A stretch of DNA of 41,862 bases from Bacteroidales bacterium (GTDB lineage: Bacteria; Bacteroidota; Bacteroidia; Bacteroidales; UBA932): assembly GCA_024401745.1 (NCBI GenBank), contig JAKSKK010000018.1, positions 1-41,862 on the forward strand. Reading direction: 5' to 3'. The notes below the pieces were generated by a model. It was not told where the DNA came from, did not search any database, and saw only the letters and a list, made by a program, of their open reading frames with translations. The position numbers and the translations under genes were made by a program. Every line of letters starts with the position of its first letter. Within the stretch, counting starts at the first letter, position 1. Below, piece by piece: positions 2,810 through 6,852 of this stretch.

Positions 2810-3943
2810 ATGGAAGAAAGATACGACGAATACTACGAGGAAGAGGAGTACAATGAGATAGACATAATGGCCCTGGTCAGGAAGCTTTTCTCCAATTGGA
2901 AGAAGTTGCTTGTCTGGGTCGGTATTGCAGCAGTCCTTGGACTCATCATAGGCTACAGCATTCCCAGAACTTATACGGCATCCGCAGAGCTTGCCCCCGA
3001 AATCGTACAGAAGTCAAGCAGCAGCATGAGCTCATTGGCCGCCCTGGCTGGCGTCAATCTGAACAACATGACTGTGACGGATGCCATGTATCCCGATCTT
3101 TATCCTGAGATAGTGAACTCGGTTCCTTTCAGGATCGAGCTCTTCAGCATGCCTGTTACCCTTGTCGAGAAGAAAGATACTGTGAAGACGGACATGTATG
3201 ACTACCTTCTCAACTACAATAAGTCGCCATGGTGGTCAAGCGTAATAGGTTTCCCGTTCAAGGTCCTTGGCTGGGTGAAGAACATCGGAAAGGAGAAGGA
3301 AGATGAAGTATCAGGCCATTCTGAGGTTGACCCTTATCACCTGACTTTGGAACAAGGCAAGATGGTGAAGGCTCTTGGCGAGAGCATTTCCATCGCAGTT
3401 GACAAGAAGACATACCTTATCTCAATAGCAACTACCGCCCAGAATCCTAAGGTTGCAGCAGACCTCTGCCAACTTGTGGTTGCCAACCTTCAGAAGTACG
3501 TCGTGAACTACCGTACCGAGAAGTCACGTCATGACCTTGCATACTACCAGCAGCTCAATGAGCAGGCACAGAAGGAATATTACGACGCCCAGCAGCGTTA
3601 TGCCAGGTATGTGGATGCCAATCAGGGCGTCGTCTTCCAGCGTGTGCTCATCGAGCGTGAGCGCCTTCAGAACGAGGCCAATCTGAAATATCAGGTCTAC
3701 AACACTACAGCCCAGCAGGTCAACAATGCCAAGGCCAAGGTGCAGATGGAGACTCCGGTGTGCGCTGTGATTCAGCCGCCTACCATTCCTTTGAAGCGCG
3801 CAGCACCTTCCAAGGCCAAGATTCTCGTAGCGTTCATGTTCCTTGGATTCTGCTTTGGCGCGGTCTGGTATCTCTGGGGCAAGGACCTTGTTGCCAAGCT
3901 CCGCGGCAAGGACGAAGAACCTGAAACTCCCACCGAAGCATAG
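2810..3943 (+). CDS. Wzz-type chain-length determinant / polysaccharide co-polymerase
   Basis: This inner-membrane protein is predicted to control polymer chain length and to contact the exporter encoded 5 nt upstream. It has the classic two-membrane-segment layout. An acidic, tyrosine-rich N-terminus (1-20) precedes TM1 (about 32-52), then comes a large periplasmic region with a predicted coiled coil (about 225-310), and TM2 (about 336-357) is followed by a short acidic tail. A proline-rich stretch (IQPPTIPLKRAAPSKAK) precedes TM2, as in Wzz/GumC families. There is no C-terminal tyrosine-kinase domain, so this is the kinase-less form. Its TAG stop shares one base with the GTG start of uvrA. 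The whole four-gene run is probably one transcript. Confidence 0.93.
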   Translation: MEERYDEYYEEEEYNEIDIMALVRKLFSNWKKLLVWVGIAAVLGLIIGYSIPRTYTASAELAPEIVQKSSSSMSSLAALAGVNLNNMTVTDAMYPDLYPEIVNSVPFRIELFSMPVTLVEKKDTVKTDMYDYLLNYNKSPWWSSVIGFPFKVLGWVKNIGKEKEDEVSGHSEVDPYHLTLEQGKMVKALGESISIAVDKKTYLISIATTAQNPKVAADLCQLVVANLQKYVVNYRTEKSRHDLAYYQQLNEQAQKEYYDAQQRYARYVDANQGVVFQRVLIERERLQNEANLKYQVYNTTAQQVNNAKAKVQMETPVCAVIQPPTIPLKRAAPSKAKILVAFMFLGFCFGAVWYLWGKDLVAKLRGKDEEPETPTEA

Positions 3944-6852
3944 TGCAGGAAACCATCCATATCAAAGGCTCCAGGGTCAACAATCTGAAGAATGTATCCC
4001 TGGATATCCCTCGGGGAAGGCTCGTTGTCATAACGGGCCTTTCAGGTAGTGGCAAGTCCTCCCTGGCCTTCGACACCCTGTTCGCCGAGGGGCAGCGCCG
4101 CTTTGCGGAGAGCCTCTCGTCCTACGCACGCCAGTTCCTTGGGCGCATGAGCAAGCCGGACGTCGATTCCATCGACGGCATTCCGCCCGCAATTGCCATA
4201 GAGCAGAAGGTGAGTACGAAGAACCCTCGTTCCACAGTCGCCACCACCACTGAGATATACGATTACCTGCGCCTGATATTCGCGAGGATAGGCAAGACCT
4301 ACAGTCCCGTTTCCGACAGGGAAGTCCATGCGGATTCGGTCCGTGACGTGCTGGACTACATTGACTCGCTCACCGGCGCCGCCCATTGTTTCATCCTGGC
4401 CGATCTAGGCTGGGCCGGCCGCGACGACAGGACCGAACTGCTCCTTTCACTCAAGGAAGATGGCTACAACCGCCTCTACGCCAATGGCCCCGTGAAGATT
4501 GACGACGTCCTTCAGATGCCGGAGTACCCTTCGGATGCCGAGCTTCTCATCGACCGCATAAGCCTTGGTGCAACGGCCGACGACCCTGAACAGCACCGTA
4601 CCCGAATGCTGTCATCCCTTGGCGATGCTTTCAGCCGGGGTAACGGCAGGATAGCCATTGTCTGCGGTGATGTGCGCCGGGAGTTCAGCAACCGTTTTGA
4701 GCTGGACGGCATCACTTTCCGCAAGCCCGACGACTTCCTGTTCAGCTTCAACAGCCCTCTTGGCGCATGCCCGACCTGTGGCGGCCTCGGCAAGATAATA
4801 GGCATCAGCGAGGACCTCGTTGTCCCCGACAAGACGAAGAGTATCTACGACGGCTGCATAGCCTGCTGGCGCGGCGAGAAGATGGGCTGGTTCAAGGACC
4901 ACCTCATCGAGCTCTCCGGCCTTTACGGCATAGACATATTCAAGCCCTGGTGCGAGCTTCCGCAGAAGACCCGCGACCTGATCTGGGATGGCATGCCGCC
5001 TATCGCTGCCACGAAGGACAGCGACCGAAGGGAGCCGGGGGGCGTTACGGGGGCAGAGCCCCCGTCAAAAGTCGACAACGGCGCAGCCGTTACGGGGGCA
5101 GAGCCCCCGTCAAACGATTCTGACGATTCGAAAAGAATCGTCGGCATAAAAGAATTCTTTGCCTGGGTCGAGACCCAGCGCTACAAGATACAGTACAAGT
5201 ACATGCTCAGCCGCTTCAGCGGCCGCGCCACATGCAGTGACTGCCACGGCAGTCGCCTTCGCAAGGAGGCCCTGTGGGTGCGCGTAGGGGGCAGGAACAT
5301 ACACGAGCTGCTCAGCATGAACGTCGAGCAGCTGATCGACTTCATGAAGAACCTCAGCCTGACTGAGGATGAGAGGAAGATAGTCGAGGAGCCTCTTGCC
5401 GAGGTGACCAGCCGCCTGCAGTACATAATGGACGTCGGTCTCGGCTACCTTACGCTCAACCGCACCTGCAACACGCTTTCAGGCGGCGAGAGCCAGCGCA
5501 TCAATCTCGTGACCGCCCTCGGCAGCTCGCTCGTTGGCTCTATGTATATTCTCGACGAGCCCAGTATCGGCCTGCATCCGCGTGATACTGAGCGCCTTAT
5601 CAGCGTCCTCAAGCGCCTGCGCGACCTGGGCAACACCGTGATCGTGGTGGAGCACGACGAGGAGATCATACGCGCGGCCGACCAGCTCATCGACATGGGT
5701 CCCAAGGCCGGAATATTCGGCGGAGAGGTCATCTACCAGGGCACGGCATACGGAGCCACCCAGGCAGACCTTGAGCGCTCCATGACGCTGCAGTACCTGT
5801 CGGGTGCAAGGCATCGCTACACCCGTGTGAAGCGCCCCTGGCAGTACAGCATAACGGTCGAAGGTGCGCATGAGCACAACCTAAAGGGCGTGGACGTGCA
5901 GTTCCCGCTTGGCGTCTTGACGGTTGTCACCGGCGTCAGCGGTTCGGGAAAGTCATCTCTGGTGGGGGACATACTCTATCCGGCCCTGCACCGGCAACTT
6001 AACGATTCGGGTGACCTGCCCGGAGTGTTCAAGTGCCTTTCCGGCAATCTCGACCGTATCCAGCGCGTGGAGTATGTTGACCAGAATCCCATAGGCCGCA
6101 GCACCCGCTCCAATGCGGTGACTTACCTCAAGGCCTACGACGACATACGCTCGCTGCTCTCACAGCAGCAATATGCGAAGATAAACGGCTTCGGGCCTAA
6201 CTACTTCAGCTTCAATGCCGATGGCGGCCGCTGCCCCGAATGTCAGGGCGAGGGCGTCGTGCGCATAGAGATGCAGTTCATGGCTGACGTGACCATGGTG
6301 TGCGAGGAGTGCGGTGGCAAGCGCTTCAAGCCGGAAGTGCTGGATGTCCGCTACCGCGGCAAGAACATCGACGACATTCTGCAGATGAGCGTCGACGAGG
6401 CGATCAAGTTCTTTGGAGAAGGAGCCGAGCCTGAAGCCAGGTCAGTAGTGCAGAAGCTTCTGCCCCTTCAGGACGTCGGCCTGGGCTACATAAAGCTCGG
6501 GCAGGGGAGCAGCACCCTTTCCGGAGGCGAGAGCCAGCGCATCAAGCTCGCATACTTCCTCAGCATCAGCCGATCCAGCCGCAAGGCCGAGAAGATACTG
6601 TTCATATTCGACGAGCCTACCACCGGCCTGCATTTCTACGATGTGGAGAAGCTGCTGAAGTCGTTCGACGCACTGCTTGACGCCGGGCACAGCCTTGTTG
6701 TGGTGGAGCACAACCCCGACGTAATACGCAGCGCGGACTGGATAATAGACCTTGGTCCCGATGCGGGTGACAAGGGAGGTGAGGTGGTTTTTGCCGGAAC
6801 TCCGGAGAATCTGATAGAACAAGGAAAGACCTGTACAGCAAAATATCTATAG
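3943..6852 (+). CDS. uvrA: excinuclease ABC subunit A (UvrA) with an in-frame palindromic insertion
   Basis: UvrA is the damage-recognition ATPase of nucleotide excision repair and acts with UvrB and UvrC. Visible features are Walker A 1 (GLSGSGKS, 32-39), the zinc-binding CPTC/CSDC pairs (276/279 and 431/434), the first ABC signature LSGGES (512-517), Walker A 2 (GVSGSGKS, 664-671), a second zinc module (C764, C767, C787, C790), a second LSGGES, and DEPTTGLH near the end. The start is GTG at 3943, overlapping the TAG of the wzz gene by one base; MQETIHIKG is the expected UvrA N-terminus. At 969 aa it is somewhat longer than E. coli UvrA (940). The excess is explained by residues about 363-400, where repeated VTGAEPPS peptides are encoded by palindromic DNA. 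The frame is intact, so the protein is probably functional. Co-transcription with envelope genes is unusual. Confidence 0.97.
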   Translation: MQETIHIKGSRVNNLKNVSLDIPRGRLVVITGLSGSGKSSLAFDTLFAEGQRRFAESLSSYARQFLGRMSKPDVDSIDGIPPAIAIEQKVSTKNPRSTVATTTEIYDYLRLIFARIGKTYSPVSDREVHADSVRDVLDYIDSLTGAAHCFILADLGWAGRDDRTELLLSLKEDGYNRLYANGPVKIDDVLQMPEYPSDAELLIDRISLGATADDPEQHRTRMLSSLGDAFSRGNGRIAIVCGDVRREFSNRFELDGITFRKPDDFLFSFNSPLGACPTCGGLGKIIGISEDLVVPDKTKSIYDGCIACWRGEKMGWFKDHLIELSGLYGIDIFKPWCELPQKTRDLIWDGMPPIAATKDSDRREPGGVTGAEPPSKVDNGAAVTGAEPPSNDSDDSKRIVGIKEFFAWVETQRYKIQYKYMLSRFSGRATCSDCHGSRLRKEALWVRVGGRNIHELLSMNVEQLIDFMKNLSLTEDERKIVEEPLAEVTSRLQYIMDVGLGYLTLNRTCNTLSGGESQRINLVTALGSSLVGSMYILDEPSIGLHPRDTERLISVLKRLRDLGNTVIVVEHDEEIIRAADQLIDMGPKAGIFGGEVIYQGTAYGATQADLERSMTLQYLSGARHRYTRVKRPWQYSITVEGAHEHNLKGVDVQFPLGVLTVVTGVSGSGKSSLVGDILYPALHRQLNDSGDLPGVFKCLSGNLDRIQRVEYVDQNPIGRSTRSNAVTYLKAYDDIRSLLSQQQYAKINGFGPNYFSFNADGGRCPECQGEGVVRIEMQFMADVTMVCEECGGKRFKPEVLDVRYRGKNIDDILQMSVDEAIKFFGEGAEPEARSVVQKLLPLQDVGLGYIKLGQGSSTLSGGESQRIKLAYFLSISRSSRKAEKILFIFDEPTTGLHFYDVEKLLKSFDALLDAGHSLVVVEHNPDVIRSADWIIDLGPDAGDKGGEVVFAGTPENLIEQGKTCTAKYL
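5030..5142. repeat. in-frame cluster of palindromes inside uvrA
   Basis: Four perfect stem-loops occur in about 100 bp. Two are ACGGGGGC-AGA-GCCCCCGT (5047-5065 and 5092-5110), one is AACGGC-GCA-GCCGTT (5077-5091), and one is GACGATTC-GAAAA-GAATCGTC (5122-5142). The first two lie in a 27-bp direct repeat (5043-5069 and 5088-5114) with a period of 45 bp, exactly 15 codons. The block encodes a low-complexity peptide rich in G, A, P, S and D where UvrA homologues have only a short linker before the conserved EFFAWVE region. It looks like a mobile palindromic element accommodated in a coding gene. No sequence like it is evident elsewhere in the window. Confidence 0.85.

Follow-up and report, generated by a model that had tools for sequence, protein, structure and literature searches.

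A composite palindromic element is dispersed through the genome of a Bacteroidales bacterium, where it was found inside genes such as uvrA as well as between genes. Its copies differ by gain and loss between this bacterium and its sister species Candidatus Cryptobacteroides choladohippi, the intragenic copies keep the reading frame open, the stems covary, and a strong hairpin follows the core. The element is probably lineage-specific and filtered for positions in frame, and it may be stamped with a hairpin from the host gene by template switching; of these points, we infer both the translation of the insert and the origin by template switching. How short palindromes come to lie in frame in important genes is poorly understood. 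The filled and empty sites in well conserved genes of the two sister species, together with the hairpin of most copies as a possible trace of the insertion, make the mechanism testable, and in this gut bacterium the host-derived hairpin beside the element may hint at the route by which such elements are inserted.

The insert in uvrA

The window, i.e., the whole stretch of DNA analysed, comprises 41,862 nucleotides. It contains an open reading frame of 969 amino acids including the insert (3943..6852, plus strand), which was delimited by the open frame, by family models and by the UvrA of the sister species that lacks the insert. Its assignment as uvrA is borne out by the match to TIGR00630 with 1010.9 bits (cut-off 729.8); against the stricter model NF001503 it scores 1041.9 bits, which is under the cut-off of 1147. 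An earlier note, made from the sequence of the window, had described two identical 27-nt copies in this gene, both in frame and each containing the palindrome ACGGGGGC-AGA-GCCCCCGT, and all of this was confirmed, with the copies located at 5043-5069 and 5088-5114 and a period of 45.

The stretch supported by repeats exceeds the 27-mers and extends over about 5004-5114 (-39 to +72 from the first 27-mer). On the plus strand it starts with a left module (5004..5042), which is common to other copies in the genome and ends in CCGGGGGG. This module encloses the left hairpin GC-GA-CC GAA GG-GA-GC (5021..5035), recognised from the alignment of copies and by covariation: its helix is paired to 89.4% in the alignment, with two-sided changes, and other copies show different stems such as AGCGGCC..GGCCGC. 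The first and the second 27-nt core (5043..5069 and 5088..5114, plus strand) are defined by the repeat and by the genome-wide copies. Each contains a core hairpin on the same strand, copy 1, ACGGGGGC AGA GCCCCCGT, at 5047..5065, seen in the sequence and supported by covariation, and copy 2, seen in the sequence, at 5092..5110. Two extra hairpins on the plus strand complete the insert. The first, AACGGC GCA GCCGTT (5077..5091), is read from the sequence between the tandem cores and overlaps the start of core 2, and its unit recurs in other tandem copies (L010, L105 and L122). The second lies directly 3' of the second core and is specific to this copy (GACGATTC GAAAA GAATCGTC, 5122..5142); it is supported by a folding window with a z-score of -4.22 and by the alignment with the sister, in which its far arm, encoding RIV of RIVGIKEFF, aligns with RLVGIKEFF. 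The RNA fold of 5020-5150 has an energy of -62.6 kcal/mol and a z-score of -4.97 versus shuffles.

Dispersal and composition of the element

The genome of the bacterium (1.99 Mb in 63 contigs, 71.6% complete) contains the 27-mer with up to three mismatches at 21 places, compared with none for a reversed control, and the repeat is therefore beyond chance. The copies lie between genes and inside other open reading frames, as expected for the dispersed element that the earlier note had suspected. Neither of the two findings that were named there as speaking against such an element was made, as the repeat is not confined to this uvrA and no peptide insert shared with divergent DNA by all close relatives was found. 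A local expansion or an assembly artefact confined to uvrA, of which the perfect 27-nt tandem copies and the MAG-like state of the draft genomes might be signs, is refuted by the dispersed copies in two separately assembled species and has next to no probability.

The view of the 27-bp unit as the element itself held for its dispersal but not for its extent, since the unit forms only the core of a composite in which a left hairpin, the core hairpin and a copy-specific hairpin follow each other. In most copies, the predicted translation is PGGVTGAEPPSK for one strand and FDGGSAPVTPPG for the opposite one, and insertions are present in both orientations. Around the start of the core, the repeat-supported stretch usually covers about -45 to +33; the left ends mostly vary between -7 and -48, with few reaching further, and the right end shows little variation. 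Covariation is seen in the element's own stems, with paired changes among copies such as ATGGGGGC..GCCCCCAT and ACGGGGGT..ACCCCCGT. Over 17 aligned copies and the 13 pairs counted, standard pairs occupy 95.5% of cells versus 89.5% in shuffles, and 17 two-sided changes were observed versus 5.2 in shuffles. Terminal inverted repeats, as they are typical of MITEs, were not noticed in the 17 copies. A covariance model built from these 17 copies yielded 26 matches at E<=1 in the genome, three of which are second copies in tandem or in the same gene, leaving 23 loci. A second dispersed module, GGGATGGAGCGAAGCGGAA, was observed with up to two mismatches at four places (L183, L184, L185 and L186), two of them being the inserts of tilS and atpG.

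Host genes and selection on the reading frame

All 23 loci were examined, and 14 of them are intragenic and nine lie at gene ends or between genes. The intragenic hosts are tilS, uvrA, lpxB, the CCA-adding enzyme gene cca, purL, a sigma-54 activator, dnaX, wbqC, msrA-ybaK, an rlmI-like gene, atpG, argS, a galactarate/altronate dehydratase (garD) and rsmF. They were named by Pfam and NCBIfam matches, some names leaning also on known motifs. Family matches or the sister alignment extend over both flanks of the insert in all of these genes except the dehydratase, in which the left side of the insert is presumably assigned correctly by known motifs. The gene-end copies are found at metK, der and a 2-hydroxyacid dehydrogenase gene, the rest of the nine being apparently intergenic. 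No broken gene was seen at these nine loci, a result that applies to open frames, which were looked for first so that a badly decayed host gene could escape, and that for L078 and L079, both near a contig end, is based on open frames only. At the metK locus, a SAM-II riboswitch was observed upstream (L018:102-160; 64.2 bits, gathering score 44).

The open frame is kept in 14/14 intragenic copies, and the six that lie antisense all use the sole one of the three antisense frames that has no stop in the core. An intragenic element would survive where the frame is kept and no stop arises, so that translated residues are expected to be added to the host protein. An untranslated insert, removed by ribosome bypass or by RNA processing, could account for strong hairpins within many important genes, and the palindromic elements of Magnusiomyces mitochondria are bypassed or RNA processed (as cited in the accessible part of PMC6649704). 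Bypass or splicing would not need the open frame found in every intragenic copy, and we give this explanation very little credence. Between the two species, dN/dS is 0.04-0.17 in all 11 host genes measured, which are thus under purifying selection. The genes for UvrA, ArgRS, the gamma subunit of ATP synthase, DnaX and the CCA-adding enzyme hence combine purifying selection with selfish-looking inserts. The element may be selfish or neutral, with selection at the protein level filtering where it stays.

Filled and empty sites in the sister species

In the sister species (G097), 23 model matches were obtained at E<=0.01. Its UvrA is 91% identical (856 aa compared), and synonymous divergence between the species amounts to 0.7-1.5. 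The empty orthologous uvrA sites expected for an inserted element were found in the sister and in the 28 genus relatives shown (one more was unparsed), all of which have a short, variable linker without the insert. Across the 17 genes covered by the comparison, uvrA, argS and rsmF have no recognisable element in the sister, cca and atpG keep the left part there without a recognisable core, and the element is common to both species in lpxB, rlmI and msrA. The inserted block of tilS lies in opposite orientation in the two species (L002 versus L095 and L120), the remaining genes differ in other ways, and for garD no true sister counterpart was found.

In the converse direction, three genes filled in the sister were checked in the own genome. 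The site in a methyltransferase gene is empty there, with a difference of 31 residues between nearly identical flanks; in a gltD-like gene, the place of the sister's insert is taken by a different sequence of about the same length; and for a lysA-like gene no match was found in the own genome. At the three cleanest sites, rsmF, the methyltransferase and uvrA, the insert comprises 12, 31 and 33 residues, respectively. The gltD-like gene of the sister (L105) was observed to carry three head-to-tail cores in frame just before the nucleotide-binding motif.

Occurrence in other genomes

The family is of a known kind, new in Bacteroidales and undescribed within the literature searched. The suspected dispersed family is supported by its many copies, but its spread is uneven and dense in the two sister species. 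Model matches were obtained in 14/81 genomes of the genus, the own genome included, and those in 13/80 other genus genomes are fewer and weaker. A scan of the order, in which the filters were strict and few candidates were scored for each genome, detected the element in 2/295 genomes including the own one, i.e., in 1/294 others. The strict, exact-type pattern was present in 1/41 genomes, the own one, and in 0/40 relatives. A pattern scan of GTDB species representatives returned 12 stretches, six from Ca. Cryptobacteroides choladohippi, three from Ruminococcus sp. UBA1366 and three from other Bacteroidales MAGs, two of these last three originating from horse feces. Viral contigs gave no match to the exact pattern, and phages and plasmids gave none to one 121-nt query. 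Rfam yielded no element match at gathering score for 16 loci; among matches under this score, one to RF03818 (24.9 of 100 bits) overlaps a hairpin of L080, and those to RF02356 (35 of 50 bits) and RF02066 (26.8 of 50) are located within or next to the Ruminococcus element of L099. No description of the element was found in the open-licence literature on palindromes in coding genes, Bacteroidales and Cryptobacteroides, subscription journals being mostly outside this scope.

The copies in Ruminococcus sp. UBA1366 (L093, L099 and L102) represent a longer element of roughly 185 nt, its ends judged by eye, with the same GGGGGCAGAGCCCCC core. They adjoin a terminator-like hairpin, of which a copy is present on both sides in two of the three; in the third, the left hairpin copy is imperfect. 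In L107 and L118 (G098), direct repeats of 34-41 nt flank related elements, which probably reflects a shared flanking module.

The hairpin downstream of the core and possible routes of spread

In most copies, a hairpin lies directly 3' of the core, and its sequence differs from copy to copy. The 75-nt windows downstream have a mean z-score of -4.03, with 14/22 below -2, compared with means of -0.34, -0.72 and -0.28 and with 2/22, 4/23 and 1/22 below -2 in three control windows, among which one far_up window (L079) was mis-cut, inflating that control. A lenient symmetric score gave a smaller contrast (mean 24.4 at 47 sites versus 18.6 in 273 control windows). The far arm of this hairpin can be aligned with the sister's host sequence. 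Divergence from the sister is greater for the near arm than for the far arm in 11/16 genes, smaller in three and equal in two; for uvrA, purL and tilS another helix was picked in this comparison, and without them the numbers are 10, 1 and 2 of 13. In the methyltransferase, the near arm exists solely in the filled allele. The sister's atpG lacks 54 nt that comprise the near arm and most of the core, and the 2-hydroxyacid dehydrogenase gene has the near arm in place of another, native sequence. The far arm is hence host sequence, and the near arm was usually changed or added together with the insert in a way that pairs with it.

Some sites depart from this pattern. Both arms of the lpxB hairpin fall within codons that can be aligned with those of the sister. 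The near arm of argS pairs yet keeps the conserved SILRK residues and is therefore no simple inverted copy; the third positions of SILRK show four changes, read by eye, each of which adds a pair, but this is weak evidence given a dS of 0.74. Near arms contain bulges and wobbles. Pooled over the 10 genes with a more-changed near arm, over half of the positions in this arm are still identical to the sister, so that some sites may have been quasi-palindromes before.

Fold-back template switching is a tentative account of the spread, to which we give clearly less than even chances. The end of a nascent strand would fold back on the host gene and copy a short stretch, giving the near arm of the copy-specific hairpin, and would then jump to an element copy elsewhere and later jump back, so that every insertion would contain inverted sequence copied from the gene that it entered. 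If true, protein-coding palindromes would gain a way of spreading without a transposase, each copy being stamped with a hairpin from its own target.

The main rival to template switching, a possible but again rather doubtful explanation, is a transposase with a preference for DNA or terminator hairpins that are already in place, for which the copy-specific hairpin would be the target and not the product. The sister's metK has no core, yet its end already carries a hairpin, and the sister's der has one at the same place too, which favours insertion beside existing hairpins. The GGGGGCAGAGCCCCC core beside a terminator-like hairpin at the three Ruminococcus sp. UBA1366 loci points in the same direction, and known REP dimers can occur within palindromes according to the available portion of PMC3733652. 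Against such a transposase, the empty alleles of uvrA and the methyltransferase have no hairpin, and the cut-off for direct repeats, as a sign of target duplication, was passed by 1/21 own copies (L017, hairpin-like). Among 26 sister and relative loci four passed; L107 and L118 look like the shared flanking module, L120 may be one, and the 17-nt direct repeat of L088 may be a target duplication. For the Y1 (RAYT) transposase family PF01797, of the kind linked to GTAG REPs, the own genome has two weak matches and the element-rich sister none, whereas a Y1 transposase is present in G043, G023 and G016, all without an element match. Over eight genomes, neither a Y1 transposase nor a reverse transcriptase tracks the element; the mover search covered these two enzyme families, and at 71.6% completeness of the genome a mover could be missed.

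The fairly constant right end and the variable left end would also fit RNA-mediated spread by target-primed reverse transcription, as in a bacterial SINE-like element. On the element strand of the own genome, G-U pairs outnumber A-C pairs by 24 to 5 (20/21 sites counted), but in the sister the excess is weak (16 to 12; 13/13 sites) and in relatives it is reversed (14 to 21; 11/13 sites), so that it is not built on. Among windows of 85 nt, the element strand gives the better fold in 27/39 cases (the worse in 11), compared with 107/226 controls. RVT_1 was matched in none of four genomes with element matches, namely the own one, the sister, G093 and G061, and a SINE-like origin is considered highly improbable.

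Comparison with known systems

The core resembles CGTC-type REPs, for which no linked transposase and no known mover are given in the part of the source at hand (PMC3733652). These are defined there by a tag CGTC (or TGTC, CCTC), a stem of 8-9 bp with complementary A/T in positions 1-2, a loop of 4-5 nt and predominantly head-head dimers, and the intragenic copies of CGTC/GTAG REPs include some within the uvrA genes of Opitutus terrae and Thioalkalivibrio (PMC3733652). Like these, the element has an 8-bp stem, unpaired tag-like and tail bases and intragenic copies; the first pair of its core stem is A-T in 17/17 copies, the second T-A in 6/17 and C-G in 11/17. A REP-type miniature element of this kind, the product of an old amplification by a transposase that was lost or is shared, would be compatible with the tag-like CGTT, the 8-bp stem starting with A-T, the unpaired tail and the intragenic copies, the more so as REPs with such traits and no known transposase have been described (PMC3733652, in the part available). 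In contrast to CGTC REPs, the tag is CGTT at 21/21 places, the loop has 3 nt (AGA or GGA at the 21 places listed), the tandems seen (uvrA, L010, L105 and L122) are head-to-tail, and an additional left module and a copy-specific hairpin are present. Membership among the CGTC REPs was rejected on tag, loop and dimer type, and an origin as a similar miniature element is regarded as unlikely.

For the composite, frame-filtered element favoured here, the Rickettsia palindromic elements (RPEs) are the closest system in behaviour, as compared by description. RPEs are described in the available part of PMC10969869 as short palindromic repeats with many copies in frame in unrelated genes, and the likeness to them that had been noticed in the uvrA insert is supported by the many dispersed palindromic copies and by the frame kept in 14/14 intragenic ones. 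The element differs from RPEs in belonging to another phylum, its host being Bacteroidales and not Rickettsia, and in combining several hairpins, including the copy-specific one with a far arm from the host gene.

The proposed mechanism appears nearest to the coding palindromes of Nematomorpha mitochondria and to template-switch mutation in yeast (PMC8604942, as far as available). In Nematomorpha, the arms of coding palindromes contain conserved host residues, and template switching is discussed as a possible origin (PMC6649704, accessible part). The element likewise has hairpins within coding sequence and host residues in their arms, whereas the Nematomorpha palindromes are long and perfect, and the accessible part of that source describes no dispersed repeat alongside them. 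Quasipalindrome template switching rewrites one arm of an imperfect repeat to match the other (available parts of PMC8604942 and PMC7202029); in the element, unlike in such mutations, the arm that appears rewritten is tied to an adjoining dispersed insert.
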